Of a stretch of 26,877 bases of DNA, positions 1 through 26,877 are shown piece after piece. This stretch comes from a virus. The notes beneath the pieces are model-generated. The model did not search any database. It was not told where the DNA came from and worked only from the letters and a program-made list of their open reading frames with translations. A program made the translations under genes and the position numbers. Location: the IMG/VR virus record IMGVR_UViG_3300010354_000520, positions 1 through 26,877 of that record. One strand, 5' to 3'. Position 1 is the stretch's first letter; each line of letters starts with the position of its first letter.

Positions 1-3000
1 GTAATATCACCATTAACACCTGGATGATAGAATAAAGTATATAGTGAATAATCATATGTCTGGTTTCCTGACTGAGGATTACTTCTAATTTCACAACCTT
101 CATTTACGGAAGCAAAGTTAGATACACCAGATACAGTCAATCCAGTTAGAGTGCCAACAGAAGTTAGACTCGATGCAGTGACTCCAGATCCAAGTGTTGT
201 TGCACTTAATACGTTAGTGCCATTAATTTGATATGTGCGTGACGTTGGAATATTAATTCCACCACCACCAAAATCATATCTAGTATTAGTATTATTATAA
301 TATAAAGATAATCCAGAAGCAGCAGTGCCTAAACGAATACCAGCACCATCTAAACTAGCAGCACTTGCTGTGCCATCACCGATAACAATTGTTTTATCGG
401 TGATTGCTAAATCAGTAGAATTAATAGTTGTGGTTGTGCCAGCAACTGTTAAATTGCCACCAAATACACCATTGCCATCTTTGTCAACTGTAAACTTACT
501 TGAACCGCCAATCTTCACATCTACGAGATATGATGGTGTAGCGGAGCTTGTATTAGTTACATCAATATCAAGACCTCTGAAAGTCGTTGAAGAAGAATTC
601 CATGTTGGTTGAATCTTAAGATTTCCTCTTAAATCTAAACCATTAGAATCTGCAATCTTTTGCTTTCTATTGCAAACGAATGTTCCAGTTGCTGGCGTAA
701 CAGCATTTCCTGACATCACATAAGTAAATGTTAATGCAGAAGGAACTGATGCAACTATAAATGTTCCATTATAATTTGCTTGGTTAGCTCCAGAAATTAC
801 AATTTCATCTCCTTGATATACGTTATGTGCAACGAAAGAAGTTACCGTAGCGGTAGTGCCACTTGATGTTATAGTCGCTACTCCAATCGAAGGCGAAGTT
901 CTTACAATACCAGCACCAACAGCACCATCAACATATGTCTTAACAGCTAACTGAGTTGGTACTGCAGTGTCTCTAGAGAAATCTCCACCGAGAGTAGCAT
1001 CTGCAGAGAATTCATTAATCGATACACCCAATTCAGCACCGAGAGATCCCAGACGTAGTGAAGCAAGACCAGCAAGGTTGAATGCTGTGGCGTCTAGCGT
1101 AGCACTACCAGTTGCCTGCTCAACCGTGAAGAATTCACCAACACGGAAGTTACCATCTTGGTCAGTTGAAACATAATATACGCGACCTGGGAAGTCCTCG
1201 ACAACTTCATTTGCTTGGACAGCAGATTGAGTTGGTGTGCCTGGCCAATTTGTGGTTGACTTTCTTCCTGTGCCGACTTGTAGGAAGTCATGACCCGTCA
1301 TACGTACTTGTGAATAGCGTAGACGAATTTCTACTGACTGACCGTTTGAAGTATTAATCGTTTTTGGATTTGCAAAAATTAGTGTTGCTCTACCAACTTG
1401 TGTTGAGTTTACACTACTAATTCTTAAAAATTCATTATCAATTTTAACGATATCATTTGCATCGAAATTAGCAATTGAGAAAATAGGAATGGTAGTTCCA
1501 GCAGTGTCAACGTCTTGTCTGATAGTGGTAGCATTGGTTGATTTAGTTACATAATAAATTACGCTACCGTCAGCATGTGCAGCTGCTGATGTTCCTTCGT
1601 TTCCTCTAGTTACTGTAACTCCAACTCCTGCTTGGATACCAGTAATATTCATTAATTCATTATTAACAAGGATAAAATTATTGGCACCCGAACTAATTCC
1701 AGATAGAATTGTAGCATCGGCAAAAGGTACTGTAGTTGCAGAATCACTTAATTCTTGAGTACCTGCATTATCCAATAAAGTTGTGCTACTGGAAACATTA
1801 TATAGTGTTACACTAGTACCTCCAGTGTGAGTTGCTAAAGTAGTACCACCACTAGTACCTTGCTTATACACTTTACTACCAGCAATATTGGCGGTAGTAA
1901 CATTACCTCCGCTATTTGCATATGTAAATTGTGTGCCTGAAGTTACAGTAATTTCAGTTCTCTGGAAAGGAAGTGTAGCAAAAGTTTGATAGTTTGCTGG
2001 AGCAATAACAATATTTACTTTATCTCCCGTCGATAAACCGTGAGCACTAGATGTAGTTACCGTAGCAACGTTATTTGTTCTAGCAACACTCGTGATATTA
2101 ACTTCTTGTGGTGCTGTTCCTGGGTTATCATATCTTCTAACTGTTGATAAAGTTAGATTTTGAGCAGTTGATGCATCCTCAACTCCTTTAATAACATAAT
2201 ACTTGGTGTCATTAAATTGTGGAGATCCAGATACATTGAGGAATTTAGTAGCACCTGTGATTTGTGGCAGTACTGCTTGTCCACCAACAACAGGTAATCC
2301 TGTTAGTGGGAAGATTTTTCCTTTTAGACCTTCTAAAGCACCGTTTGGATTTTCTCCTGATACAGCAGCTGTTGTAGCAACAGCACCAGATGGAGAAACG
2401 CCAGCAGCACCAATACCAGTAATTGGCTTACTATTTTGGAAAGTACCAGTAATAGCTTCAATGATTAGATAAGTCGATTGCTCATAAAGAATTAATCCTA
2501 GAGCATAATCTGGTTGGCCTAAAGTACTCTGTTGTACTTGCTCACCCTTAACAAATAGTGCGGAATTTTCTCCATAAACAAAGTTTAATCTCTGACCCCT
2601 TACATTTGCAGCAAGAGCTGTTTCTGTTAAATCAAATCCTCTTGAAACAGCACCAAATGTGCCCCATGAGTTGTTTCCTGCAAGTGAGCGAATTCTACCG
2701 CCACCTGTGCAAGTATAACCAATATGAGCATAGTAAGTAAAGCAAGAAACAACTTCAGCGTTACCTTGATCTTTACACCAGAAACCTACACCACCATCAT
2801 GGAATTGAGTAAACGAATCAAATAGCATCGAACCATTTGAAGTTGTTCCTCCATATACACTTCTATCAACAAGAGCACCAACACCACCAGTGCAATTTGG
2901 AGCATCTCCAACTGGACGACCAGAGAATGCAGAGCATTGAGTAATATAAGGTGATTTGCCAAGAATAACTGATGCTGGGTTTAAACGTAAGAATACACCT

Positions 3001-4808: not shown

Positions 4809-4871
4809 TTTTTATACTTTCCTTATTGAAATCCGTGGTGAATAAAAAGACGTTTGTGCCGAATTTGGCAA

Positions 4872-5543
4872 TTACTTTGGTCCTGCGTTGTAATCGTAAG
4901 TACCAAATCTTGCAACAAAATAACCATCATTGTCAATAAAATATGTTATTTTTCTTGCTTCAAACTTATACTGTTGGTATTTATCATTGTTTTCGTCATT
5001 ACTATAAGATTTAGTTACTTCCACGACTTTTAAAGTTAAATCTGTCACATCATTTATTTTTGAAGATGCTACTGTGATAGTTTCTTCAGGAGAGAATAAA
5101 TAACCACCATTAACAATATTAATAGAAGAAATATAACCTAAATTATTTCTAGTAATTTGCAAATTTAAATGTGTGCCTGGTTCTTGATTCCCAGGGCCCT
5201 CTCCATCCGCGTTACCATATAGTCCAGTAACATTGTAAGTTACACCAGCATCAGTTGTATTTTCGATGCCGCCAGAAATAATTGCTAGTGACCTAACAGC
5301 CCCTACTTCTACTACACTTCCCCATGCTTCTAAGAAATCTTTTGGTTATGTGCCATCAATATTAAAAACATCAATACTGTCATTATCTGCAGTATTTGTT
5401 TTAGTATACCAAAGCATACCATCAGCATCTCTTCTTAGAGCATGGAAAGTAAAGCGATTTGAAGTATTGAAATAGGAATACATACTCCCATTTCCTCCAC
5501 CAGATCCACCTTCTATGCCAGATTCACTTAAGTAAAGTGCCAT
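4872..5543 (-). pseudogene. Virion structural gene with one in-frame TAA (codon 66 of 224)
   Basis: From the ATG at 5543-5541 the frame reads 65 residues (MALYLSESGIEGG... to NIDGT), meets TAA at 5348-5346, then continues open in the same frame for 157 residues to TAA at 4874-4872. The continuation (PKDFLEAWGSVVEVGAVRSL, then a segment with NGGY at 145-148) is coding-like, so both halves are one gene. GGAG lies 10 bases before the ATG, and two late-promoter boxes lie upstream. The N-terminus resembles small conserved structural proteins that I associate with T4-like marine phages. No good restart follows the stop; the TTG at 5162-5160 lies 60 codons on and has no clear ribosome site. It may be a genuine nonsense allele, a sequencing or assembly error, or a readthrough site. 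The wild-type codon could have been CAA, GAA, AAA, TCA or TTA by one substitution. Confidence 0.8.
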
Positions 5544-5578
5544 CTATAATAACTCCGATTTGAGTTTGCCGTCAATTT

Positions 5579-5586
5579 TATTTATG
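5579..5586 (-). promoter_or_regulatory. Candidate late promoter box CATAAATA
   Basis: The minus strand reads CATAAATA, one base from the T4 late consensus TATAAATA (recognised by gp55-type sigma). It lies 35 bases upstream of the ATG of the interrupted gene, in the intergenic space. A perfect box is just upstream at 5597-5604, so either or both may serve. Confidence 0.5.
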
Positions 5587-5596
5587 ATGTCACAAG

Positions 5597-5604
5597 TATT
5601 TATA
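5597..5604 (-). promoter_or_regulatory. Late promoter box TATAAATA for the interrupted gene
   Basis: A perfect minus-strand match to the T4-type late promoter lies between the stop of the 245-residue fibre (5616) and the ATG at 5543, leaving about 45-50 bases of leader. Position and match both fit a late promoter. Confidence 0.7.
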
Positions 5605-5615
5605 ATAATTAACTA

Positions 5616-6353
5616 TTATGAAAAAACCTTCCAAAAGTCTCCTGTCCAAACGATTGTGACCGTAACGCCAGCAACATCGAGAATATATGGACTATCCACA
5701 TCTCCAGTTTTATCTTGAAATGTTTTATTTAAACCAGCATTTAAAATGACGGGATATGAATTCCAGGAATTTTTCATATCAGCAAAAACGATTGTGTTGC
5801 CTACATTAGGATTGGGTGGCAAGGTAACTGTAATATCTGACTGAGTGGAAGAATTAGTTAAAGTATCTACCAAATACCTTCCACTAACTTGAGCAACAAA
5901 GTCAGATGTTTCAATTCCAAAACTAGCGCCAGCAGCAATATTATTACTACCTCTAACAATAAGGTCACCTTTAATTTCTACAACACCAGTAACATCATTA
6001 TCATTATTTGGGTCGATGATAATATCACCAGTTGCTTTAACTCTACCAACCAATAAACTATTCATTGTGAAATCACCAGTACTTTCTAAAATAGCTGGTG
6101 TTACAGAGTTTGGAAACATATTGATAGTATTAACTTTTGCCCAAGAAAGGACTCCATTACCATCAGTAATTAAGAGCTCATTGGGAGCACCATTATCAAC
6201 TGGCATTATTAATGTATAGTCGCCAGTTAAACTAGATGGTGCTTTAATAGACACAAATCTAAGTGTGCCTACATTAGTGCTTAATTTTACCGCGTTGTTA
6301 TTTTCAACAACCAGTCCGTTTTTTACGGTAAATTCTTTATTGTAAGTAGCCAT
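5616..6353 (-). CDS. Short tail fibre or fibre tip protein, 245 residues
   Basis: The start MATYNKEFTVKNGLVV resembles a fibre N-terminus seen in marine T4-like phages (recalled, not searched). Residues 36-72 hold the fibre linker pattern IKAP, YTLIMPV, then LLITDGNGVLSW; a similar linker occurs at 79-114 of the 497-residue fibre. Residues 108-137 give the GDIIID/GDLIV repeat typical of beta-rich fibre shafts. The C-terminal domain (about 150-245) has ITVTLPPNPNVGNTIVFAD followed by beta strands and ends WKVFS; this type of domain is common at phage fibre tips and may contact the host. The ATG is supported by GGGGAGAG upstream, in the loop of a possible hairpin. A late-type box overlaps the stop of the preceding gene. 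The receptor is unknown. Confidence 0.85.
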   Translation of the reverse strand: MATYNKEFTVKNGLVVENNNAVKLSTNVGTLRFVSIKAPSSLTGDYTLIMPVDNGAPNELLITDGNGVLSWAKVNTINMFPNSVTPAILESTGDFTMNSLLVGRVKATGDIIIDPNNDNDVTGVVEIKGDLIVRGSNNIAAGASFGIETSDFVAQVSGRYLVDTLTNSSTQSDITVTLPPNPNVGNTIVFADMKNSWNSYPVILNAGLNKTFQDKTGDVDSPYILDVAGVTVTIVWTGDFWKVFS

Positions 6354-6373
6354 AACGGTTCACTCTCCCCGTT
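6354..6373 (-). promoter_or_regulatory. Shine-Dalgarno in the loop of a small hairpin before the 245-residue fibre
   Basis: On the minus strand AACGG (6373-6369) can pair with CCGTT (6358-6354), leaving a 10-base loop GGAGAGTGAA that contains GGAG. The ATG follows at 6353, directly next to the stem. The linear GGAG-to-ATG spacing is 11 bases, longer than usual; folding would change the effective spacing or accessibility. Five base pairs is short, so the structure is tentative. Confidence 0.35.
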
Positions 6374-6386
6374 GTAGTGTTAGAAA

Positions 6387-6394
6387 TATTTATG
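6387..6394 (-). promoter_or_regulatory. Candidate late promoter box CATAAATA for the 245-residue fibre
   Basis: Minus-strand CATAAATA overlaps the TAA stop (6392-6390) of the 490-residue gene and lies 33 bases before the ATG at 6353. The same one-base variant of the T4 late consensus recurs at 5579 and 10219 at a similar distance from a gene start. Confidence 0.55.
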
Positions 6395-7862
6395 ATTTAA
6401 TAGCAGTAGCAATTACTTTTACAGTAGTAGAAGTTGCAGATGCTGGTGTAACCAAGAGACGAATAAATCCAGAATTAATATCTGCAGAATATGAAGCAAT
6501 ATATGTATCAGACGCTATAGCATTCTGCTCAGTAATTGTTACGTCAGTGCCATTATGTATCAATAGTAATTTTGATACATGTGTATTGTTTCCTGATTTT
6601 GCCTGAATCAAATATTCCACTGAAGAGAATGTAGAGGCAGGAAGAGGAAGAATTGGATATTGTGTTGTTGCTGTTGTTGTATTTGAAGCAGATGTATAAA
6701 CAGCAAAATTATTAATTGTTACAGTAGTAGCAGATGCATTTCCTAAAGTTGGATCTGTTAATACTGGGGAAGTTAAAGTTTTATTTGTTAGTGTCTCTAC
6801 GTTATCTAAAGTTGATAGTGTGCCAGTAGTAGGAAGAGTTACGCTTGTATTTGCAGTGGTCGTTACTTCTAGTGTGTGAGCACCAGTATGAGTAAAATTA
6901 CCTCCGAGAGTAATTGTCTTAGTGCCGTTATTGACACCAGTGCCACCAAAGGTTGGTGAAATAATAGTGCCATTCCAAACACCAGTTGTAATAGTGCCTA
7001 CTGAAGTTAGATTAGAAGAAACAATTCCACTACCCAGCGCGGTAGACCCTATTACGGTAGTGCCATTAATTTTATAAGTTTTCCCTTCGGCAAGATTCCA
7101 ACTTTCTGATGAAGACCACGAAGTAAAACCATGACTATAAGTTAATGTGACACCAGTAGTGCCAACATTAAATCCAGACCCATCAGCAGCTGCTGCACTA
7201 CTTGTGCCATTAGCGATAATTACAACTTTGTCTGTTACTGCTAAATCAGTTGTACTAATAGTAGTAGTAGCACCTTGTACAAGTAAATCTCCAGTAATAG
7301 TTAAGTTACCAGTTACTGTTGCTACTGTGCCGTTGTCACCAATAATAGAATCAGTGAATTGACCATCAGTATCATTCCATTTAGTTAATTTATTTTGTGA
7401 AAGATTATCACCATTTTTAATAGCAACTGTTACATCAGTTGCACCATCAAAGAATCCGCCAGATAATCCTGTGCCAATTGTAAGAGTTTTATCAATAGCT
7501 GCTTCAATAGTAATATTTTGACTACCATCAAAAGCAACACCATTAATTGTTCTTGCTGTTGCTAATTTAGTGGTAGTATCAGCATTTCCTACTAAATCAC
7601 CAGTAAAAGTCTGAGAAAAAATATTTGCAAACTTGAAAGAAGCAGACCCAAGATTATAAGTTGTATTAGCAGAAGGTAATACAGTAGCACCAAAATTGGC
7701 GTTGGACATATTTGCCCTTGCCATTTCGTAACCACCTGCAGTTACGCCATCATGCAACCTCAAAGCATAATTGCTGAGATTTACTGATAACTCTCCTTGA
7801 GCACCAATAAAATTATTATTTTGAGTTGCAGTGCCTCTTCTAAACTGTACTTGGGTTGCCAT
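6390..7862 (-). CDS. Tail fibre with Mtd-type N-terminus, 490 residues
   Basis: The N-terminus VQFRRGTATQNNNFIG, then GELSVN and LRLHDGVTAGG (residues 5-44), matches the N-terminal anchor type of phage fibres related to the major tropism determinant (Mtd_N-like). Next come beta-rich fibre repeats: GNLTITGDLLVQGATTTIST (185-204), LTSVGTITTGVWNGT (285-299) and ETLTNKTLTSP (356-366). The C-terminal domain (about 414-487, with YLIQAKSGN, NGTDVTI and SYSADINSG) matches the C-terminus of the 1646-residue fibre in sequence and placement. The ATG has AGGA a few bases upstream. The gene follows the 176-residue gene by 18 bases with no late box between them, so it is probably co-transcribed. The likely role is host contact, with the N-terminus attached to the virion and the C-terminus distal. 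Confidence 0.88.
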   Translation of the reverse strand: MATQVQFRRGTATQNNNFIGAQGELSVNLSNYALRLHDGVTAGGYEMARANMSNANFGATVLPSANTTYNLGSASFKFANIFSQTFTGDLVGNADTTTKLATARTINGVAFDGSQNITIEAAIDKTLTIGTGLSGGFFDGATDVTVAIKNGDNLSQNKLTKWNDTDGQFTDSIIGDNGTVATVTGNLTITGDLLVQGATTTISTTDLAVTDKVVIIANGTSSAAAADGSGFNVGTTGVTLTYSHGFTSWSSSESWNLAEGKTYKINGTTVIGSTALGSGIVSSNLTSVGTITTGVWNGTIISPTFGGTGVNNGTKTITLGGNFTHTGAHTLEVTTTANTSVTLPTTGTLSTLDNVETLTNKTLTSPVLTDPTLGNASATTVTINNFAVYTSASNTTTATTQYPILPLPASTFSSVEYLIQAKSGNNTHVSKLLLIHNGTDVTITEQNAIASDTYIASYSADINSGFIRLLVTPASATSTTVKVIATAIKS

Positions 7863-7880
7863 TACTTTTTCCTTATAATA

Positions 7881-8411
7881 TTATACGTTAGTTTCTAAAT
7901 CAACTTGATAAATTCTTCCTTCTGGGCCCATCATATCCCAAAAACCAATAGTAGATACTCCAAAAGCATCCACAGTATTTGCTAGTGGATTATTTGGATC
8001 TGAATTGGCGTTATAATCACCAGTGGGAAACAAAGCAAGTCCAGGGATTTCAATCCACTGGACTCCAGCTCCTGTTGTTGCTAGAACATTACCAGGCGAC
8101 CCTGTGCTGCCATTAGCAGTCAGAGTTCCTAATAATTTTAAATTGGTTGCATTTACATAAAAACCATCCCAAGATAAATTGGGAGATGCTCCATATTCTC
8201 CGTTATCATTAAATTGAAATTGTCCATTACTACCAGCAAGAGTAGTAGCAGATCCAACATCAACAATAGATTCTACACCGTTCTGATTTTTCTTGAGGAA
8301 TAATTTACCTTCAAAGGTATTGATGGCTAATTCACCTAAGTCAAGATGCCCTACCTCAGGAAATCTCCCAGGTACGGACGTACGTTTAATTCTAATCTTA
8401 GGTGCTGCCAT
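7881..8411 (-). CDS. Short fibre-like structural protein, 176 residues
   Basis: The start IRIKRTSVPGRFPEVG, then LDLGELAINTFEGKLFLKKN (residues 5-43), is the same anchor style as in the 490- and 497-residue fibres. This is followed by a fibre linker ending VLATTGAGVQWIEI (about 107-120) and a C-terminal segment with LFPTGDY, DAFGVSTI and GRIYQVDL. There is no long shaft, so it may be a minimal fibre, an adaptor, or the stub of a longer one. The ATG follows a strong GAGAGGAAG ribosome site. A CTAAATA box sits just upstream, after the stop of the 73-residue gene. The protein is conserved-looking; its exact place in the virion is unknown. Confidence 0.8.
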   Translation of the reverse strand: MAAPKIRIKRTSVPGRFPEVGHLDLGELAINTFEGKLFLKKNQNGVESIVDVGSATTLAGSNGQFQFNDNGEYGASPNLSWDGFYVNATNLKLLGTLTANGSTGSPGNVLATTGAGVQWIEIPGLALFPTGDYNANSDPNNPLANTVDAFGVSTIGFWDMMGPEGRIYQVDLETNV

Positions 8412-8433
8412 ATGGCTTCCTCTCAGTCAGTGC

Positions 8434-8440
8434 TATTTAG
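8434..8440 (-). promoter_or_regulatory. Candidate late promoter box CTAAATA
   Basis: Minus-strand CTAAATA lies between the stop of the 73-residue gene (8454) and the ATG of the 176-residue gene (8411). It differs from the late consensus core but is correctly placed for a short leader. Weaker than the TATAAATA sites. Confidence 0.4.
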
Positions 8441-8453
8441 CGGAGGGTAGACT

Positions 8454-8675
8454 TTATGTAAAGTCTTCTTGGACAGTATTTACTGCCTTCTTTTTGGTTG
8501 TCCCAGTGGATTTATCAGATTCTAACTCGGTAATTTTTTCCCTGAGGGAGTTTACTGTCTGCGTTAGAATATTACCTCTGGTCTCTAAAATAATGTTTTG
8601 TTGGACTAAATCCGACAAACGCTTTTGATAAACTTGAATCAATGAATTGTAATCAATTTCGACATCATTAGACAT
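8454..8675 (-). CDS. Small coiled-coil protein, 73 residues
   Basis: The first 55 residues show a leucine/isoleucine-rich helical pattern (LIQVYQKRLSDLVQQNIILE, then VNSLREKITELES), suggesting a coiled coil. The tail is Lys/Thr-rich (STGTTKKKA). There is no signal peptide or membrane segment. It lies between the 497- and 176-residue fibre genes, 17 bases after the former. GGAG upstream of the ATG supports the start. Size and fold type recall T4 gp57A, the small helical chaperone needed for fibre trimerisation, but I see no clear sequence match. A structural connector is equally possible. Confidence 0.75.
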   Translation of the reverse strand: MSNDVEIDYNSLIQVYQKRLSDLVQQNIILETRGNILTQTVNSLREKITELESDKSTGTTKKKAVNTVQEDFT

Positions 8676-8692
8676 AATTTACTCCATATAAA

Positions 8693-10186
8693 TCAGAATG
8701 TACCGCCGTCAACGAGTGTATTAATTAACTCAAAAGTGCCAGCGTTATTATTTAAAACTTGATTAGTTGCAGTGCCGAAACTACCTAACCAAAGACCTTT
8801 CATCTGCACATTTGCTAGTGTGCCAGATAGTTGAGGACCAGCAGCTTCAGTTGTATCATCTACGAATAAGAATCCAGTGTTACCATCCCAGAAAATCGAA
8901 GATGTTTTGGCGGATGTATCGTAGTAGTGGAATCTGAAACCACGGTCAGATGAAGTTGCTGAAGTTGGAGCTCCACCACTTACTGTGCCTAATTCTAAAA
9001 CAGGGTCATCATAAGTTGTAACGGTTGAGTTAGAAGTTGTCGTGCTACCATTAACAGTTAAGTTACCAGCAACAGTTACGTTTGCTCCAGAAAGAGTAAT
9101 AGCAGTTGTGCCACCACTTGACTGGATATCGTTACCAGTAACAGTTAAATCTCCAGCAACTGAAACATCATTACCACTGTAAGTGATAGGAGAATTTACT
9201 AACTGGTCGTTAGTATTATCCCAACCCATGATAGTAGCATCAGCAAGTGCGCTACCATTCTTGAGTTGAATATCATCAGCATTAACTGTGATGCCAATAC
9301 CAGCACCAACTGCTAAATCTACTGTTTGTCCTTCGCCAGCAGATGAAGTTTTTGTTAAACCCGCACCAGCAGTTACATCTTCAACATAGTTACCAGTGGT
9401 ATCTGTACCAAGAGCAACTGAGTTAGCAGCAATAGTAGCAGTTAAAGTAGCATTTGCTAAATCAGTAACAGTTACGCTACCAGTTAAATCACCACCAAGA
9501 GTAATTGTGAAATCTGCAACATTGAAATCAAGATGACCATTTGCGTCATCATAAGTAACAGCAATACCACTTTCTTGGTTGGTGGTTGTTACCATAGCAC
9601 CAACAATATCTTGCACTCTCTCAGCATTGATAGTTACTGATCCAGATGAAACAGCAAAATCAGTAGTTGGAAAAATTGCAACACCAGCGTTGGTGTCTGT
9701 TGCTAACTCAGCAGCAATAGTAACAGTGTTATTAGTAATCGAAGTATCAATACCTTCTCCGCCAGTAAAGGTGAGTGTCTCTCCAGTATTGATGCTATCT
9801 GTGCCAGTATCGCCAGCAATAGATAAATTACTTACAACTTCTGCCCAAGAAGTAACACCGTTTGCATCTGTCTTTAAAAAATAGTTAGCAGTTGGTGTTG
9901 CTGGGAGAGTATAAGTGATGTTTGATGCTGAAGTATCAGGTGCTTTAATCGAAACACTACCGCCACCACCAGCGCCAGTCTTTGAGTGAAGTTTTACTGA
10001 TTGTCCAGTAGATGTAGTTTCTTTAACCCAGTAGCGGGCAGAACCAAGGAATTTGTTGTTATTGGTTGTGCCGTCAAGTCCCAAATAAAAATTATATTCA
10101 TCATTAACAAATGCTGGTTCACCTGCAGCTAAAGCTGGAAGGTTTGCTTGCAAACCTCTCTTAAACTTAATCGTTGGTGCCGCCAT
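8693..10186 (-). CDS. Tail fibre with Mtd-type N-terminus, 497 residues
   Basis: The N-terminus IKFKRGLQANLPALAAGEP, then FYLGLDG (residues 6-39), is the anchor type shared with the 490- and 176-residue proteins. A linker follows (SIKAPDTSASNITYTLPATP, then LKTDANGVTSWAEV; 78-117). Then come beta-rich fibre repeats: ITLGGDLTGSVTVTDLANAT (228-247), LGTDTTGNYVEDVTAGAGL (259-277) and a GDLTVTG / GNLTVNGSTTTSNSTV section (345-389). The protein ends LVDGGTF, which resembles the end of the 114-residue protein (DVDAGGF). AGGAA precedes the ATG by 8 bases, and a CATAAATA box lies 32 bases upstream. It is probably a virion fibre; the receptor cannot be inferred. Confidence 0.88.
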   Translation of the reverse strand: MAAPTIKFKRGLQANLPALAAGEPAFVNDEYNFYLGLDGTTNNNKFLGSARYWVKETTSTGQSVKLHSKTGAGGGGSVSIKAPDTSASNITYTLPATPTANYFLKTDANGVTSWAEVVSNLSIAGDTGTDSINTGETLTFTGGEGIDTSITNNTVTIAAELATDTNAGVAIFPTTDFAVSSGSVTINAERVQDIVGAMVTTTNQESGIAVTYDDANGHLDFNVADFTITLGGDLTGSVTVTDLANATLTATIAANSVALGTDTTGNYVEDVTAGAGLTKTSSAGEGQTVDLAVGAGIGITVNADDIQLKNGSALADATIMGWDNTNDQLVNSPITYSGNDVSVAGDLTVTGNDIQSSGGTTAITLSGANVTVAGNLTVNGSTTTSNSTVTTYDDPVLELGTVSGGAPTSATSSDRGFRFHYYDTSAKTSSIFWDGNTGFLFVDDTTEAAGPQLSGTLANVQMKGLWLGSFGTATNQVLNNNAGTFELINTLVDGGTF

Positions 10187-10218
10187 TTAATGATTCCTAT
10201 CTATACGATTTCTCTTAC

Positions 10219-10226
10219 TATTTATG
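10219..10226 (-). promoter_or_regulatory. Candidate late promoter box CATAAATA for the 497-residue fibre
   Basis: Minus-strand CATAAATA lies in the 51-base gap between the 114-residue gene stop (10238) and the ATG at 10186. Spacing to the start codon (32 bases) matches the other boxes in this window. Confidence 0.55.
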
Positions 10227-10237
10227 AATTAGAATAC

Positions 10238-10582
10238 TTAAAATCCACCTGCGTCAACATCAATAAGATTATCCAATTCAATATCCAATTCATCGATAAA
10301 TGGTTGTGGTAATCCAGGTGATACTGGTTCAGTTTGTGAAGCAGCAGTATTCAATACTACATCTGGATTGACAAATTTATATTTTCTTGCTATCGCATCA
10401 TAAACCATAACATAATTATTTGTAGTGTTTCCTGTTTTATCTAAAGCAGAGGAATCTACATTCCCTAAATCTTCTAGTGACTGTGCCAAGAGTTGTGTGG
10501 TAGATAAACGGAGATTTGTTGCTGATGTGAGTTGCGCGGTAATATTATTACCATATGTCATTTTTACGGTGTATTCTGACAT
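10238..10582 (-). CDS. Small structural protein of unknown role, 114 residues
   Basis: I do not recognise a defined domain. Residues 1-50 look beta-then-helix (YTVKMTYGNNITAQL, then LSTTQLLAQSLEDLGNVDSS). The middle has YVMVYDAIARKYKFVNPDVV, and the acidic tail ends DVDAGGF, similar to the end of the 497-residue fibre. The ATG overlaps the stop of the 110-residue gene as TAATG, with CCAGGAG inside the upstream gene, so translation is probably coupled. The shared operon and position suggest that it acts with the 110-residue protein in the virion. That role is inferred from context. Confidence 0.78.
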   Translation of the reverse strand: MSEYTVKMTYGNNITAQLTSATNLRLSTTQLLAQSLEDLGNVDSSALDKTGNTTNNYVMVYDAIARKYKFVNPDVVLNTAASQTEPVSPGLPQPFIDELDIELDNLIDVDAGGF

Positions 10583-10914
10583 TAAGTAACTCCTGGGGAT
10601 ACGGTTACGATTCCTTCTGCCACTCTAGTTTTTACACCACCGCTAGATGTAATCACTAAATCATAAACATAACGTCCAGGTTTTAAAATTTTTGTGGCAA
10701 AGTTACTCATTGATAACTTCAACTTACCATCAGCTCTATTAACAAAAGAGACACCAAAAGTATTATAAGATGAAGCAGTGTGAGTTTTTCTAATCTTTGA
10801 TTCCGCCGTATACCCAGTAAGGTCGAGAGGAACATTATTAGCAGATGTCACAGTAAATTGTGCTTCAAAATCTGCTCCTTGCTCCACAACTAAATTTACA
10901 GGTATAGCTGCCAT
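10582..10914 (-). CDS. Small beta-sandwich-like structural protein, 110 residues
   Basis: The pattern is NLVVEQGADFEAQFTV, LDLTGYTAESKIRKT, LKLSMSNFATKILKPGRYVY, ending AEGIVTVSPGVT. I recognise this as a small conserved family of T4-like marine phages, with a predicted Ig-like or beta-sandwich fold and unknown function. The GADFEAQFTV and LDLTGYTAESKIR motifs also resemble N-terminal domains of some baseplate or receptor-binding-associated proteins. The start follows TAGGTAG. Its promoter box appears to sit inside the terminator hairpin of the upstream transcription unit (10943-10950). The stop overlaps the next ATG. Confidence 0.82.
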   Translation of the reverse strand: MAAIPVNLVVEQGADFEAQFTVTSANNVPLDLTGYTAESKIRKTHTASSYNTFGVSFVNRADGKLKLSMSNFATKILKPGRYVYDLVITSSGGVKTRVAEGIVTVSPGVT

Positions 10915-10924
10915 TACTACCTAC

Positions 10925-10959
10925 AAAAAACCCTTCGTATAGTATTTATACGAAGGGTT
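10925..10959 (-). terminator. Strong intrinsic terminator after the 68-residue gene
   Basis: A perfect 13-base-pair inverted repeat (10929-10941 with 10947-10959) encloses a 5-base loop. On the minus strand it is followed by TTTTTT (10930-10925, the first two bases within the stem). It starts 5 bases after the stop of the 68-residue gene. This is the clearest terminator in the window. Confidence 0.9.
10943..10950 (-). promoter_or_regulatory. Late promoter TATAAATA inside the terminator loop
   Basis: A perfect minus-strand TATAAATA spans the loop and the last four bases of the first stem arm of the terminator at 10929-10959. It lies 28 bases before the ATG at 10914. A transcript starting 6-7 bases downstream would contain only part of the second stem arm and could not form the terminator. 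Confidence 0.75.
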
Positions 10960-10964
10960 GAAAA

Positions 10965-11171
10965 TCATTCTTCAGTTGCCGTTTCTTCTTCAGGCAATTC
11001 ACCCAAATCTTGCGATTCTGATTTTTCAAGCAATTCTAAAGTTTCTAATCCACCCTGAAGTTTGAGTTTATACTCTTGTGCTTTTGCTAATTCTGCTTGA
11101 ATTTGAGCAATTTTTTCGTCAATTTCTTTGAGTTGATTTTGAAAATTTTCTTTCAGACCAGTAGTATCCAT
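10965..11171 (-). CDS. Small acidic coiled-coil protein, 68 residues
   Basis: The sequence is almost wholly helical: heptad-like LKENFQNQLKEIDEKIAQI, then AELAKAQEYKLKLQGGLETL, then a very acidic tail ending EEETATEE. I recall similar proteins of unknown function in T4-like cyanophages. The ATG has no strong Shine-Dalgarno. An AATAAATA box lies 24 bases upstream, and a strong terminator follows 5 bases after the stop, so it looks like a one-gene late unit. It lies between the 1646-residue fibre and smaller structural genes. A role as connector or assembly helper is a guess from size and position. Confidence 0.8.
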   Translation of the reverse strand: MDTTGLKENFQNQLKEIDEKIAQIQAELAKAQEYKLKLQGGLETLELLEKSESQDLGELPEEETATEE

Positions 11172-11195
11172 ACGCTTAAAATAACAACGCGATGT

Positions 11196-11203
11196 TATTT
11201 ATT
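11196..11203 (-). promoter_or_regulatory. Candidate late promoter box AATAAATA for the 68-residue gene
   Basis: Minus-strand AATAAATA lies between the stop of the 1646-residue gene (11216) and the ATG at 11171. It is one base from the late consensus, with a short leader. Confidence 0.5.
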
Positions 11204-11215
11204 ATAGCACATATG

Positions 11216-14200
11216 TCAAGAGATTACGTAATTTTTTTGAATAATTAAACGATTGAGATAATCATTTTGATCAGCTGCTGGTGTATATCTAAGTCTTACA
11301 TTACCTCCAGAAATATCTGCGCTAAATGTTCCTAGCAATTTATTATTAAAAATAGTGGAGTATTCTGACAGATAAACATCAGTGCCATCGTTAAGTAGCA
11401 TTATTTCAGTTGAATGAATATAATTATTTACTGTATTTTTAATTTGAATTAAATATTTTGCAGTGTTGACACTAGATGCTCCAAATTGATCTAAAGTGAT
11501 AGTTGACGAAGAAATTGAATCTATTACTTCTAAGTTATCTAAAATTCTTACAATTTTAATGACGCCATAATTTTGTGTGTCATTGCCAGATTGGTAATAC
11601 AAAAATGGTGGAGCATTTTGTGGTACTGTAAATCTAACTATACTGTTGGATGTATTACCATTTCCAATGACACCAGTAGAATATAAGTTTGCTCCTATTG
11701 CTCCTGGTGACGTGACAATATTGAATGGATGTCCAGTAATATCTCCTAAATCAAATACGTATTCTTTTCCAGGTAATAATTGTAAATCTGGTAATACCCC
11801 TAAATCTTGTGAAATATTTACATCTAAAATTTTATATTTGTTAGATTCTTTAGTAACTTGGAATGTTGGAACTCCCGACACGCCAATTCCAATTTGAATT
11901 TCACTGGGGTTTGCTGGTAATAGACCAGGGTTTCCCAAAAGAGTTCTCGAACCAATATTTTGAATTTTTCCTAATGTTATTCCTTTTTCTCTAAGATCAA
12001 TAACATTTTGTTGATTGATATCAAATAAACTATACTTATACCTAGCAACACCTAGACTACTAGATCCAGATGTTTGTCCAGATGAATATGATGCAGAAGC
12101 AACATCTAATTCAACAAATCCACTTTCTTGAATTTGTCCAAGTGTTACTTGACCGCCACTAATATAACTGCCAGGATTGGTTGACTTGTCTACAGTAAAA
12201 GTATCACTATCTATTAATGTGATGATGTAAGTACCATTGAAAGAATCAGGAATAATTCCTTCTACTTCTACTGCATCACCAGTGTTTAATAAATGTGTGA
12301 CGGATGTGTTGAATGTAATTTTATTTGTTGTTGAATTCCAAGAAGCCGAAGAAATATTTTTTGGGGTGCCAGTTTTTTTAATTATTTCTCTGGATCCAGC
12401 AACTGTAACAGCGGAATTTTGTGGTGGTAGAATACCTTTTACAACTGGTGTAAATTTACTAATACCACTGAGATAACTATCTTCATTTGCAATTCCAGTG
12501 CCTAATCTAGAAGGAGATAAAATGCCAGAAACAATAGCTGCAGCATCTAATTGATTGAGTGATAACAATTCCCAATTATCTGGATCTGTTGCGGGTAATT
12601 GGGAAAGAATCCACGTTTGTAATACTGTATTTGGATCTCCGTCTATTTCATTTTTTTGAATTGCAATATCACCTGCTTTTAAAGCACTACCCAAGAAAGA
12701 TAGAGATGCACCAACTGTTAAAGGTGGTAATGTTTGATCTACCGTAATAGTATTTGTTGTGGTATCAATACCACCAACAACAATTCTTGTATTTGATGGA
12801 ATCCCCGCACCAACTACACGCAATCCATCTCTCAAATTAACTACATTGTTTAATGTAATTGTGGTATTAGTGTTAGAAACTAAAGTTTTGATGGAAATTG
12901 GAATATATTCCTGTAGTCTTTCCGCTTCAGTTTCAATTGTATAAACCACAAATTGTTGTGATTGTGGTAACTGAGAGACATCAATTTTTCCATTTGAATC
13001 TAACTGTACAATCAGACCAGGAATACTAGATGTTCCTTTATTCAATCCAACAAAATTACCTAAAACGGATGATTTGTTAATGTAATCTCTAACCGCTTTT
13101 TGTGTTGGTAATACAGTATGTGCAGTATTAACTGCTCCCCCAAGATTATCATCTGGAGAAAATTTGAAAATAGGTACTCCTGGAGATCCTTTAAGTTGTA
13201 AAGAATCTAATACACCAAGAGCAACAGATCCGCTAAATGATACTTTACCACTTCTCAAGTCTACATTAAAAAATGGTCCAACGCTAAAATTACCACTTTG
13301 ATCCGTGGCACTAACATAACACTTTCCAGAATCTACCTCTACATTTTGTGCTGCTGTTACAGTAATACCACCATTTTGAGGGAATGCGGTATAATTAATT
13401 CCAGATCCTACATATTCAAAAGTGTGACCAGAGCTATTAACTGTTGATGGTGAGAATAATTGAATTTGTGCGTTGTTTGGTATTGCTGCTGCCTGAGCAT
13501 TTGTTAGTGGGAAATTAGTTGTGAATTGAGTATTGTTGCCTTCAACATAACTTAAAATCTCACCAACCACTTGCTCATTACCATTAGGATCTAAACCAAG
13601 ACCAGGAATTTTTATAACAAAATTTGGTATTGGTGGAGCTTGGAAACCAGTTACTGTTAATCTTGTATATACAGCGCCAGTTGCGATAGTAATTTCTCCA
13701 GTAGAAGATCCTGGCGTATTTGAATAACTTTCATTCCAAGGAATATCTAATAGAATTGAAATTCTATTAGTTTGGAAATCTACAGTATCAATAACTTTAC
13801 CAGCGCCATTTATAGATGGTGTTGATGTGTGGTTAGAAATTGTTACTGCTTGCCCTCTTTCAAATTTGCCAATATCAATAATAGAAACTTCTATAGATGC
13901 TCTTACCTTGGTCCCTCCAGCTGCCGAAGTAAAAATTGTGCCGATAATATTACTTGGAGTTTGATTAACATCTGTTTTAGTAATATTTTGTACGGATGAA
14001 ACTTGACCACTCGAAAAAATAGGCAATACATTATCAGAGAATCCAACCGCCTTCAATCCCTCATCACCAAAGTTTGTAGCTGAGTTAGTAATTGAAGCAT
14101 AACCACCAGATTCACAAAGAACGCCAACTGCTTCAAATACTTGGAAAACTGATACTAACTGAGTATATGCATCATTCTTCATATGGAATCCGATGGATCC

Positions 14201-16156
14201 GAATACAATCTGAGTAAACGCATCAACAACCATTGATTCTAATGGACTGTTGCTATCTAATTGAGCACCGTCAGCTAAAAGACCACCTGCTCTAGTTTTA
14301 GCAGCATCGTAAGTTCTTGTTATCGGGTTATATGATACTTTACCTAATTTTGAAATACAAGAGCAGTTTTGTGTATATGGTGATAAGAAAATTCTTTCTT
14401 TCGGTGGAATAATTTTATATGTTGATAGTAATTTACCTTGTCCAGCAGGAATAATAGCACTTAACAACAACTCATCATTAGCACTAATACTATTAACTGT
14501 GTAAATATTATTACCAATTTGAATTCTCCAACCAACTTGAATTTCATCTAAAAATCTAGTTGATAAATTACCAGTGACAATAGCACTACCAACTGTTAAA
14601 TTAATTCTTCCTTTTCCTTTTACGCCACTTTGCTCTGGATATGCTACTGCATATCTCCATGTGAATCCATCTTGAGATACTACAGCACCAGTGATATGTT
14701 TTTTAGCAGTAGTTGCTACCCCCGTGATTGGATCTGGTTGTCCTCTAACTACAGTAAATTCTCCAGTAGTGGTGTTAAAAGTAACTACTTTCATCCACTC
14801 TTGGTCTACTAAGATAAAACCAGGACCAGGACGATACGCAGGAATATCAGCACCTTGGATAATAGATGTTACAATATTTACCAAAGTATCGATAGTATTC
14901 TGCACTTTAGTGCATTCTGGATATCCAGAAAGATCTTGAATGACCGCTGGATATCCAGCCGCTTCAAATCCAGATGGAACTGTTAGAATTTTTTGTTTTG
15001 CATGATAAGCAACTCTTTCAAAAGTATAAATTAATTCTACTTCTTCTCCAGAAACATCACTAATTAAAAATCCATCAGCATCTAGATATGCTTCGCCATT
15101 TTTAACAGATTTTACATTTCCTCCGCTTCTTAAGTCGGCAACCAAACCATCAATAATATATCCAATATCTCTGCGGCAAATAGTTTCATTATAATCTGGA
15201 TTTGAAATTAAAGCAGGAAATTGAGCAAGCAAATCTGCAATAACTAAATTAGTAATAGCAGTTTTTTGAAACTCAATTAAATTTGATCCATCAAAATAAA
15301 TTCCAGGCACTCTGGAAAGAGTATGTCCAGGTAATACTCTAAAAGTCGTATCAGTTGCTGATAAAGTTCTATTGTCAGATTGTTCAGTTTCTAGAAATCC
15401 TTTACCACCCAGGAAGTTATCTTCAAATACCATGTAGTTGACATAACAACCAGAGGTAACCCAAAAAATATCTCTACCTTCATTTTTTGGAATTACGATA
15501 GTTTCTCTTAAGTTATCACCTACAATAGAAGTTCCCTTTGGTAAGTAAATAGGATTTTCTTCGTAGTATGTGCCAGTAGAAACTCTGATGGTAGTATTAC
15601 CATCTAATGCTGCCGCTGCTCTAGCTGCAGCTCTAATCGTCTTGAATGCTTTTGAAGGACTTTTTCCAGACTTGGAATCGTTACCATCTGTTTTTACATA
15701 TAAAACATTGGTATATTCTGCATCACCTAAAGAAGTTGGAGTGCCCCACCCACCAACTGTTTTTGGTCCATATAATTCTTTAGTGGCACTATTATAATAA
15801 TAATCATTGAGCTTTCCTTGTGTGCTCAATGGTGCAACAACTCCTGATAAAATTTGCTCAGAAATAGAAATAGTTGATGCAGGCCAAGACCCATTAGTTT
15901 TGGGTCCGTATAAATCTTTTTTGAGTGTATCTAAGTAAAAATCTCCATTAGCACCATCAGCTGATGTTGGGGGAAGAGTGCCACTCAATAATGATCCGCC
16001 ATCATCTCCAGCTAAAGAAATTTGGTTAATAGCAGCAACTAGATTAGGTAATCCACTAGCAAGTTGGCTAATGTCTCCTACATCATTGGCAAGAGAATTA
16101 ATCTCCTGTCTCTGTTGCTCAAAGGTATAACTTTTGGGAACGTTTCTGATTGCCAT
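11216..16156 (-). CDS. Large modular tail fibre with pectin-lyase-like beta-helix, 1646 residues
   Basis: Order: a helical N-terminus (1-50, FEQQRQEINSLANDVGDI); two LYGPKT modules (58-142); a beta-helix start (150-235) with LYVKTDGND, TIRVSTGTY and SIVGDNLRETIVIP; a long interruption (about 290-610) that includes ICRRDIGYIIDGLVADLRSG (326-345) and a G-R-I-N-L beta-module (515-574); a second helix-like section (640-710, FTQIVFGSIGFHM, CESGGYASITNS); a CYVSATDQSGNFSVG module (946-960) with PTQKAVRDYI (1017-1026); an HGL-like module (1268-1340); a degenerate cupredoxin-like domain (1460-1538); and a C-terminal domain (1565-1643) shared with the 490-residue fibre. Modules with similar motifs in the left-edge fibre suggest common ancestry of parts. 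The ATG overlaps the preceding stop as TAATG. It probably binds the host surface; enzymatic action is unproven. Confidence 0.92.
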   Translation of the reverse strand: MAIRNVPKSYTFEQQRQEINSLANDVGDISQLASGLPNLVAAINQISLAGDDGGSLLSGTLPPTSADGANGDFYLDTLKKDLYGPKTNGSWPASTISISEQILSGVVAPLSTQGKLNDYYYNSATKELYGPKTVGGWGTPTSLGDAEYTNVLYVKTDGNDSKSGKSPSKAFKTIRAAARAAAALDGNTTIRVSTGTYYEENPIYLPKGTSIVGDNLRETIVIPKNEGRDIFWVTSGCYVNYMVFEDNFLGGKGFLETEQSDNRTLSATDTTFRVLPGHTLSRVPGIYFDGSNLIEFQKTAITNLVIADLLAQFPALISNPDYNETICRRDIGYIIDGLVADLRSGGNVKSVKNGEAYLDADGFLISDVSGEEVELIYTFERVAYHAKQKILTVPSGFEAAGYPAVIQDLSGYPECTKVQNTIDTLVNIVTSIIQGADIPAYRPGPGFILVDQEWMKVVTFNTTTGEFTVVRGQPDPITGVATTAKKHITGAVVSQDGFTWRYAVAYPEQSGVKGKGRINLTVGSAIVTGNLSTRFLDEIQVGWRIQIGNNIYTVNSISANDELLLSAIIPAGQGKLLSTYKIIPPKERIFLSPYTQNCSCISKLGKVSYNPITRTYDAAKTRAGGLLADGAQLDSNSPLESMVVDAFTQIVFGSIGFHMKNDAYTQLVSVFQVFEAVGVLCESGGYASITNSATNFGDEGLKAVGFSDNVLPIFSSGQVSSVQNITKTDVNQTPSNIIGTIFTSAAGGTKVRASIEVSIIDIGKFERGQAVTISNHTSTPSINGAGKVIDTVDFQTNRISILLDIPWNESYSNTPGSSTGEITIATGAVYTRLTVTGFQAPPIPNFVIKIPGLGLDPNGNEQVVGEILSYVEGNNTQFTTNFPLTNAQAAAIPNNAQIQLFSPSTVNSSGHTFEYVGSGINYTAFPQNGGITVTAAQNVEVDSGKCYVSATDQSGNFSVGPFFNVDLRSGKVSFSGSVALGVLDSLQLKGSPGVPIFKFSPDDNLGGAVNTAHTVLPTQKAVRDYINKSSVLGNFVGLNKGTSSIPGLIVQLDSNGKIDVSQLPQSQQFVVYTIETEAERLQEYIPISIKTLVSNTNTTITLNNVVNLRDGLRVVGAGIPSNTRIVVGGIDTTTNTITVDQTLPPLTVGASLSFLGSALKAGDIAIQKNEIDGDPNTVLQTWILSQLPATDPDNWELLSLNQLDAAAIVSGILSPSRLGTGIANEDSYLSGISKFTPVVKGILPPQNSAVTVAGSREIIKKTGTPKNISSASWNSTTNKITFNTSVTHLLNTGDAVEVEGIIPDSFNGTYIITLIDSDTFTVDKSTNPGSYISGGQVTLGQIQESGFVELDVASASYSSGQTSGSSSLGVARYKYSLFDINQQNVIDLREKGITLGKIQNIGSRTLLGNPGLLPANPSEIQIGIGVSGVPTFQVTKESNKYKILDVNISQDLGVLPDLQLLPGKEYVFDLGDITGHPFNIVTSPGAIGANLYSTGVIGNGNTSNSIVRFTVPQNAPPFLYYQSGNDTQNYGVIKIVRILDNLEVIDSISSSTITLDQFGASSVNTAKYLIQIKNTVNNYIHSTEIMLLNDGTDVYLSEYSTIFNNKLLGTFSADISGGNVRLRYTPAADQNDYLNRLIIQKNYVIS
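11543..11779 (-). other. Cupredoxin-like domain lacking the usual metal ligands
   Basis: Residues 1460-1538 of the 1646-residue fibre run LPGKEYVFDL, GHPFNIVTSPG, IVRFTVPQNAPPFLYYQSGN, YGVIKIV. This matches the cupredoxin-like layout found in cyanophage structural proteins, where LYYQC is normally followed by His and Met. Here Ser replaces the Cys, and no His or Met follows. The first His (GHPFN) remains. It is probably a structural fold only. Confidence 0.5.
15731..15985 (-). repeat. Two tandem LYGPKT modules near the fibre N-terminus
   Basis: Residues 58-96 and 105-142 of the 1646-residue fibre are two copies of a roughly 40-residue unit. Shared positions: SADGANGDFYLDT with STQGKLNDYYYNS, KDLYGPKTNGSWP with KELYGPKTVGGWG. 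The GDFY...LYGPKT.G.W pattern is common in phage and bacterial fibre stalks. Confidence 0.75.
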
Positions 16157-16368
16157 TACTTACCAGCTATTTCTCTTAAAAGATTTTTGATTTCCGATAA
16201 TTCACTTTTTAGCGTTTCTACATCACTTTGTAATCCTCTGATTATTCCGCTAGCAGATTTAGCTTGTTTAGTATTATCGAATAAGTTTTTATCTGTATTT
16301 ATGATGGCACCAGTGGAGTTATCACGATATAACTCTTCGTGACCATATACTTTTGAATAATTATTCAT
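16156..16368 (-). CDS. Small coiled-coil protein, 70 residues, coupled to both neighbours
   Basis: The N-terminal half MNNYSKVYGHEELYRDNSTG with AIINTD is the conserved start of a small hypothetical family that I recall from T4-like phages. The C-terminal half (40-70: SGIIRGLQSDVETLKSELSE, then IKNLLREIAGK) is a predicted coiled coil. Its ATG overlaps the stop of the 2845-residue gene (TGATG), and its stop overlaps the ATG of the 1646-residue fibre (TAATG). This one-base overlap at both ends suggests coupled, stoichiometric translation. There is no clear Shine-Dalgarno of its own. Function is unknown; a linker or assembly helper between the two giant proteins would fit. Confidence 0.82.
   Translation of the reverse strand: MNNYSKVYGHEELYRDNSTGAIINTDKNLFDNTKQAKSASGIIRGLQSDVETLKSELSEIKNLLREIAGK
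16296..16303 (-). promoter_or_regulatory. Possible intragenic late box CATAAATA
   Basis: Minus-strand CATAAATA lies inside the 70-residue gene, about 140 bases before the ATG of the 1646-residue fibre. The same variant sits at plausible promoter positions elsewhere, but here it is within codons and the leader would be long, so it may be chance. Confidence 0.25.
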
Positions 16369-19300
16369 CAGAAAGCCGCTACAATTCTAGCGTCTTGAAT
16401 TTTTGGTATATAACAAGGATTAGATGCTTTCATTACAATTTTGATAGCAAAAGATGAAAATTCTGTCAAATTAGAAACACTGTATTTGTGCTCTTTGTAT
16501 GAAGATTGATCTTCAAATAAACCAGCAATAGCAATTTCGTTAGATGGAGCAACATCGATATCTGGTCCACCATTTTTATTAAATGGTATCCACTCAATAT
16601 CATCAAAAACACTTTGGGAATTAACAGCTTTAGTTTTATAATAAACTTCTACATCATCTTGACTTGCTAAATTAGCTGTTAATCTAACATCAATACTTGT
16701 TGCTGCATTTGCTAAACTAATTTCTTTTGTAAGATACTTAGCAAGAGCAGATGTATTTTTGGGATTTATATCGGAAATATAAAGAATTCCAGGTGAATAT
16801 GATATCGAAGACACTTCTATAAATCCAGGAACCGATTCATTAGTATCAGTTTGATTTTGTGGCGCAATATTTTGATGCCATAGTTTATCATAAACACGAA
16901 TTATATCTGGTTGTTGATTGGCACCGTTATTTGCTGAAGATCTTCCATATGTTGTGCCTTCAGCAAAAGAAGTATAATCTCCGTTTATAGGTGATTTTTC
17001 TTCTAAAATTTTTAATTCTTTGGTAATTGGATCCCAAGAAATTATTTTGGCATAAATTTTATTATTAAATCTATTTACTAAATCTTGGCGATATACTTCG
17101 ACGTTAGTATTTGGAGTAAATATAGGTAAAACTTCAGTTATACCATTAATTGATACAAATGCTCCAGAAAGATTTTGCACTCCAAATGTAAGAGTTTCTC
17201 CTGCTTGATATAATCCACTATTTTTAATTTTTACATAAATTGTATTTGAAGAAACTTTAATAATTTCTCCTCTTGTATTAGTGGTGTTTCCTACAACACT
17301 TTGTCCTATAGTTGGTAAAATTGCTTGGCCTTGAGAATTTGAAGGTAAATTACTGACTTGGAATTTATAAACTGGGTAGAATCTTAAATATTTGTATCTT
17401 CTTCCATATCTAGTTTCAGATCCGTATCCTTTATCAACAAAAGAAGAAATAGTTTTTACAGATGAAGATCTTAAATCAATCAATGGGGAAAGATTATCAA
17501 CTGGAGTGCTAAACGATAATTTATATACTAATGATTTCTTAGCATCTGTCCAAGTAGATCCATTTTTGATTTCATTGAAACTGGATGCAATTACTTTTTG
17601 ATTAGTGAAATAATGCTCTTCGTTTATAAATGTAGTTTCATAAGAAGATTGACTATATGATAAGTAATTTTCTCCTCTACTATCAACAGGAATTATATTA
17701 GTTGTTTTTACTTGAGCATCAAAAGGAGTATTTGCGAAAGAAAGATATCCGATTTGTGGATATAATTTTTCGTATTTTCTATTATAAGATGCTAAAATTT
17801 TATTTCCACCACCCATAGTAGTTGATCCAGCACCAAGATTTGATGTTATATTATAATATTCTAAACCAGCATTACTTACTTGGAATAAATTAGAATTGAA
17901 ATATTCTCCATCAATTCCACCAGTAGTTTCAACTTGTTTAAAAGTCACGTAAGATTTTCCAGAATCTTCAAAACCATTGTTGGGATGAATGATTCTGACA
18001 ATTTTATTATTATTTTTAAATAATGATGAAGTCGCAGAATCATTTGATGAGGAATCGGTTTCAATTGTGTTTGTATCTAATAATTCATAACCAAGATTCT
18101 CATTCGTTAATTTTACAGTAGCATTTGTATTAGTTGTAAATACTGCTCTATAAAGAGTAAATTTAATATCTTGACTTAAATCTTCAACCCAAGAATCTAC
18201 ATTTTGTGATTTAAATACAGAGCCTAGCAGAGGTTGTTGAGTAACTACCTGTGCTGTTGCAACATCTGTTTCTCCTAGACGAGAAGACCATAAAGAATAA
18301 TTAATTGAATCTGTTTCAATTGCTAATGCATAATCAGTATTATTTTGTAAATATACTGGATGATCAAATACAAATTTTGTTGGTGAAATAGATTTGGAAA
18401 TAACACCATTATTAGGATCTACTGATACACCCATTCTAACAGCAGGTGTATCTATTTCTAAAACTGGTATGATTACTGCTTCTCTACTAATAGATCCATT
18501 GGGTCTTAAAATAATAGATGGTGTGTCTGTATATCCAGATCCAGCAAGAAGAATATTTGCTTCAAATACCTCTCCATTTGAAATAGAAACGTTTCCAAGT
18601 GCATTACTACCACCTGGGAGCTGAGGACTTTGAATAATCAAAGTAGCGGAATCATATCCTTCTCCATAATCAACAACATCAAGTCTGACTATTTTCCCAG
18701 AATTCTTACATATACTTACAGTGAGTTGAGTATTATTTAATGCATTTTTATTAATTAAACTTGGAATGTTTAATAACTCTGTTTCTTTGAAAGAATTCCC
18801 AGTTAAACTAGTGTAATTTGATAATACTACTATATAGACTTGAGAATTTGTTAAAGAAACTGTCTTTTGTAGAGTTGGAGTTAATGTGTTGCCATTATTG
18901 TCAATTACTTGACTAACAATACCACTCACACCAGATTCTGCTCCAGAAATTGTTTCTCCAATTGTTAAATCTAAGGTGCCGCTAGCAACAACTCTCAAAT
19001 ATGTATTTGGGTCTTTGACAACTTCTGTGCCTGGAATAATATAATTTCCTGGTTTTCCAGTGTTTGTATCTGTTAAATATACTCTGATTGGAAGAGTGTC
19101 ACTCTTAGAAGAGAAGAATAAATCTAATTCTGTTACAAATATACCTCCTTCAAAATTTTCAACTCTAAAAGTTTGTGATAGAGGGCTTGGTTTAGATTCT
19201 GTAGATGCTTTATCAATAAATTGAATGCCTTCTGCTGCCTTTAAGAAAGATGGTACTGTTGAAATAATAGAAGATGGTTGTACTGGAAATACTCCTGTGG

Positions 19301-26863: not shown

Positions 26864-26877
26864 TATTTATATTTATA
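26864..26877 (-). promoter_or_regulatory. Two overlapping late promoter boxes (TATAAATA twice) for gp8
   Basis: The minus strand reads two perfect TATAAATA boxes sharing two bases (26871-26864 and 26877-26870), 37 and 43 bases before the gp8 ATG. They probably drive gp8 and the long genes after it. The right box touches the window edge. Confidence 0.75.

Follow-up and report, generated by a model that had tools for sequence, protein, structure and literature searches.

The locus described here raises the question of whether a terminator and a promoter can occupy the same bases between two phage genes. The window, by which we mean the whole stretch of DNA analysed, corresponds to a complete IMG/VR record, 26,877 bases long, and contains virion genes from a T4-like marine phage. 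Its large genes all lie on the minus strand, its protein matches are tail-fibre and related, and its relatives are Synechococcus, Prochlorococcus, Pelagibacter and Methylophilales phages. The original prediction had placed a late promoter within a terminator hairpin between two of these genes. The features concerned are as follows.

11196–11203, minus strand: AATAAATA, 24 nt upstream of the ATG of the 68-residue gene, fits the cyanophage late-promoter motif NATAAATA (sequence; motif from PMC2984593)
10965–11171, minus strand: 68-residue gene upstream of the hairpin, phrog_580
10929–10959, minus strand: perfect 13-bp hairpin, arms 10959–10947 and 10941–10929, loop 10946–10942 AATAC (sequence, fold and covariation)
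10943–10950, minus strand: TATAAATA, T4-type late promoter box (sequence; invariance of TAAATA; same spacing to the ATG where the hairpin is absent)
10936–10938, minus strand: predicted transcription start inside arm 2, with the box set at −13 to −6, its place in T4 (PMC1524935)
10925–10930, minus strand: T-run TTTTTT, beginning with two bases that pair as part of the stem, the presumed termination U-tract (sequence and terminator scan)
10920–10922, minus strand: AGG, probable ribosome-binding site of the 110-residue gene, outside the hairpin (sequence)
10582–10914, minus strand: 110-residue gene downstream of the hairpin, phrog_1084 / phrog_3304, annotated 'L-shaped tail fiber protein assembly'

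Judged on sequence and its conservation, the T4-like marine phage probably has a dual-function element here, in which an intrinsic terminator and a gp55-type late promoter are fused, and the overlap of the two is very probably functional. Read 5′ to 3′ on the minus strand it is AACCCTTCGTATA-AATAC-TATACGAAGGGTT-TTTTG (10959–10924). The hairpin begins 5 nt past the stop codon of the 68-residue gene, and its 13-bp stem is the best match of a terminator scan of positions 1–20000. Only five of the 13 pairs are GC, which counts against this reading. The RNA folds at −18.3 kcal/mol, whereas shuffles average −3.65 (z −7.5), and none of 200 shuffles was equally stable. Both this fold and the covariation described below mark the stem-loop as stable beyond chance. 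Directly past the stem, on the sense side, the minus strand reads TTTTTTG. The plus strand beyond the inverted repeat reads GAAAATC, so the T-run lies on one side only and the hairpin would serve as a terminator for minus-strand transcripts alone, the direction of the large genes. Rfam gave no match in the window at the gathering score, the weak matches near the element falling far under the cut-off.

The promoter box is built into this structure. The final four positions of arm 1 supply the TATA of TATAAATA, and the 5-base loop supplies its AATA. With the bases that follow it reads TATAAATACTAT (10950–10939), the sole copy in the 26,877-base record, which lies upstream of a late structural gene and has a conserved TAAATA; the ATG of the 110-residue gene (10914) is 28 nt from the TATAAATA box. 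The perfect 13-bp stem, 5-base loop and T-run of the original prediction are hence exact in sequence and coordinates, and the box said to span the loop and the end of the first arm is TATAAATA at 10950–10943. Two further, overlapping TATAAATA boxes lie at the right end of the window (26864–26877), upstream of a 626-residue gene (24947–26827).

The anatomy suggests how the two functions would be divided. Minus-strand RNA reading through the 68-residue gene would contain the two arms, fold into the 13-bp hairpin with U's behind it, and terminate. A polymerase with the phage late sigma would start at about 10938–10936, inside arm 2, and its transcript, lacking arm 1, would be unable to fold the terminator and would read into the 110-residue gene and on into the genes beyond. 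The 68- and 110-residue genes would become separate late transcription units within about 35 bases. We infer that termination and initiation do occur here, and that gp55, gp33 and gp45 have a role. As a 26.9-kb fragment the window lacks the region of their genes; S-PM2, which bears an orthologous element, encodes all three. The 68-residue gene has a probable late promoter of its own in AATAAATA, judging from its motif. The insulation of this gene from the downstream genes, as originally proposed, is upheld for RNA, where it is a predicted effect, but does not extend to promoter occupancy: RNA polymerase arriving from upstream must pass over both the box and the predicted start before stopping, so that promoter occlusion could still occur. 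Moreover, a polymerase terminating just past arm 2 would sit over the start site, and the two functions may interfere.

We compared the element across relatives. A nucleotide search of phage records gave short protein-coding matches only, and relatives were therefore fetched through proteins; loci were collected through the 68-residue protein (phrog_580) alone, those found via the hairpin pattern being excluded from the tally. The fused hairpin follows the stop codon in 46 of 64 distinct loci, in 27 sequence versions, the 46 constituting a single homologous family at 70% protein identity and not 46 independent events. The gene downstream is the 110-residue gene in the window's closest kin and the neck gene gp13 in most others, among them S-PM2 66786, S-H9-2 46321 and Sf-FR1 105884. 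The 68-residue protein itself is coiled-coil-like with an acidic tail; the gene that follows it differs by phage, being either the 110-residue tail-fibre gene or gp13, both structural, and the 68-residue gene may be a small mobile gene. At one locus (L153, near 6001–6750) a gene sits between the 68-residue gene and the fused hairpin, indicating that the element can remain with the downstream gene on gene gain.

Pairing is maintained across this family through compensating change. The share of inner positions that pair is 98.6% in native arms and 71.0% in arms swapped between relatives, and none of 20,000 permutations attained the native figure; stem pairs were counted from the outside in because MAFFT misplaces inner stem bases as loop length varies. 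Individual pairs occur as TA, AT, CG, GC and wobbles, and arm variants include CCCTTCG/CGAAGGG, CCCCTCG/CGAGGGG, CCCTTCTT/AAGAAGGG, CCCTACCTG/CAGGTAGGG and CCCGTCTT/AAGACGGG, among others. The T-run is found only on the side expected (4.4 T of the six bases after the hairpin versus 1.7 A of the six before), which fits termination of the upstream gene.

A conserved hairpin around a late promoter might nevertheless have translation as its main target, like those of T4 e, soc, 49 and I-TevI, with early or read-through RNA masking the ribosome site and late RNA, begun within the hairpin, leaving it free. The geometry of T4 gene e (TACCTTCTATAAATACTTAGGAGGTA-TTATG) is the same and its switch is experimentally established (PMC3014915, PMC2988022), and the arm 2 of some relatives makes a good ribosome site near the ATG (GGGAGGGTTTTTTCATG in L108, CAGGGATTTTTTATG in a gp13-like lineage). 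In the window, however, AGG lies outside the stem, making masking in the manner of T4 gene e an unlikely role, and 14 nt separate the end of arm 2 from the ATG. Furthermore, the U-tract conserved past the stem in the 68-residue family is unneeded for masking and absent in T4 e. We consider a mainly translational hairpin improbable in the window; in relatives of the L108 type, with arm 2 near the ATG, the hairpin may both mask and terminate.

Less probable still is a terminator only, with TAAATA in its loop as a chance match in AT-rich DNA. TATAAATA alone occurs five times in the window against 4.15 expected and is not enriched, so the promoter box by itself would mean little; A/T-rich loops are common in AT-rich terminators, and hairpins with TATTTA and AAATAT loops exist too. 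The combination is another matter. Among 1,000 dinucleotide shuffles of the whole window, a T-tailed perfect hairpin with TAAATA over its loop arose twice with a stem of at least 8 bp, once at 10 bp or longer and never at 11 bp or longer, which bears out the original view that promoter and terminator are unlikely to coincide by chance. TAAATA is, moreover, unchanged in all 18 aligned versions while the arms change; the loop register shifts and the box stays. A loop varying freely over a conserved stem had been named as the result that would speak against the fusion. The reverse was found, with an invariant TAAATA and inner pairs that change with compensation, and stem pairing and TAAATA are conserved together across the 46 loci.

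The box also follows the orientation of the neighbouring gene. In six 68-residue relatives in which the next gene is convergent, a clade of their own, the box is lost and a plain terminator is found (GACCCC-TTAC-GGGGTC-T7 and variants), these GACCCC-nnnn-GGGGTC-T7 structures occupying the same place as the fused hairpin. Neither hairpin nor box is present at 68-residue loci in which the next gene overlaps or follows at once (for example L089, L091, L103 and L123). At two further 68-residue loci the arrangement differs: L145 has terminator and promoter in tandem, and L132 keeps the box with a poor stem. We also scanned viral contigs for T-tailed hairpins with CCCT/AGGG arms and either TAAATA, its reversal TATTTA or the anagram AAATAT in the loop, and compared the three by the gene context of distinct hairpins among the matches listed rather than by totals. 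A reversed box would serve the opposite direction. A co-directional gene start lay within 60 nt of 52 of 64 TAAATA hairpins, against 26/64 for TATTTA and 35/64 for AAATAT, and contexts that were only convergent numbered 3, 18 and 7, respectively, again among distinct hairpins in the matches listed.

Promoters without the hairpin complete the comparison. Among 110-residue homologues that lack a 68-residue neighbour, 61 of 62 have the TAAATA box but no hairpin, and the median distance from box to ATG is 24 nt there and 25 nt with the neighbour; the distance to the gene start is thus conserved, which again speaks against a chance match within a terminator. The converse idea, of a promoter only whose inverted repeat is a DNA element (a cruciform, or a protein site aiding the late sigma in opening the box), would suit a box centred in the repeat and a palindrome kept despite sequence change, but it is the least likely of all, given the one-sided T-run in the sense direction, the position of the hairpin directly past a stop codon, the 61 late promoters that do without any repeat and the plain terminator in the same place in convergent relatives.

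The reading as terminator and promoter in one also has a direction in time. Since the box stands without a hairpin in 61 of 62 homologues, the promoter seems to be the older part, around which the arms of the terminator were apparently fitted once the 68-residue gene lay upstream. That such fusion is a recurrent T4-like solution when a gene comes to sit ahead of a late one, in which complementary arms are selected around an existing −10 box so that a single site ends the incoming transcript and begins another, and a terminating polymerase may re-initiate with late sigma and clamp on the box beneath it, is a speculation to which we attach little probability.

Elements of the same plan occur elsewhere in T4-like phages. 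In another lineage the plan stands ahead of gp5 with the full box TATAAATAC (L179, L201, L209, L225, L240, L265 and L279); it is also found ahead of a distant gp13-like gene and, in KVP40, after gp15. RB49 carries a strong hairpin, GTGGGGAGTGTAAATACTCCCCGTTTTAATG, at 20500–20525 in the interval separating gene 45 from gene 44, the sliding-clamp and clamp-loader genes; within this hairpin the RB49 record itself annotates a 'hypothetical late promoter'. Per genome such cases are few. Across nine T4-like genomes we counted between 0 and 4 TAAATA-loop hairpins per genome, of which several are weak, and most genomes have about one or none; S-PM2 has one strong fused case, and the scan of the Syn9 genome found no TAAATA-loop hairpin. 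Genome-wide enrichment of the fused element was tested and, at these counts, is not claimed.

Two related arrangements were seen alongside. In the first, a T-tract runs straight into TATAAATA (TTTTTTATAAATA), as at S-PM2 108063 and 136627 (L168), T4 87159–87198, L145 6217 and L070; T4 has a terminator of this kind between genes 8 and 9, and one of the S-PM2 tandems stands directly after psbA. In the second, fused hairpins in other phage lineages have a T-run followed almost at once by the ATG (for example ACAGGGATTTTTTATGGC; L171, L172, L179, L225, L257, L261 and L280). Arm 2 in hairpins of the L171 type possibly doubles as the ribosome site, which would combine terminator, promoter and translation switch in one.

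How does the element compare with known systems? As a terminator it resembles the intrinsic terminators of T4-like phages in its stable stem, GC pairs at the base, U-tract and position directly past a stop codon. T4 terminators have been described with a 4-base loop (PMC2988022), and the convergent relatives have an ordinary terminator with a loop of 4 or 5 bases; in the window, unlike these, the loop and the AT-rich top of the stem are the promoter box. As a promoter it resembles gp55-type promoters (T4 TATAAATA, cyanophage NATAAATA; PMC1524935, PMC2984593) in its motif, its orientation and its spacing from a structural gene, but whereas those are usually free-standing, the window's box is enclosed in a terminator. 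With the tandem forms (T4 genes 8/9, S-PM2 108063 and 136627, L145) it has in common a compact terminator and late promoter between co-directional genes; there only the T's are shared, whereas here terminator and promoter are superimposed. Relatives with the promoter alone, with a plain terminator, with the tandem or with the fused form thus lay out a possible assembly path, and the fused form would be a compact natural part at which one unit ends and the next starts. Software that predicts promoters and terminators in separate steps would miss the pair as a single element. Literature searches, with most subscription journals outside their scope, found no description of a fusion in this terminator form. 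Cultured cyanophages bear the fused element, making the claim directly testable.

The closest parallel is the set of late promoters known within hairpins, those of T4 e (lysozyme), soc, I-TevI, I-TevII, I-TevIII and segB and of Aeh1 mobE, which act on translation (PMC3014915, PMC2988022). As in e, soc and I-TevI, the late promoter of the window lies in arm 1 and the loop; upstream transcripts would include the complete hairpin, and late transcripts would start past arm 1 and escape it. The T4 hairpins enclose the ribosome site or AUG in the stem, and that of T4 e, which our genome scan also picked up, lacks a U-tract and carries its ribosome site in arm 2. In the window the stem ends at 10929, ahead of AGG at 10922–10920 and ATG at 10914, and the ribosome site outside the hairpin, together with the U-tract, makes termination the likely outcome. 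The window element hence shares the logic of the T4 hairpins but not their outcome, and is without the defining feature of that family. It would extend a promoter-in-hairpin device known experimentally from T4 from the control of translation to that of transcription end in T4-like marine phages.
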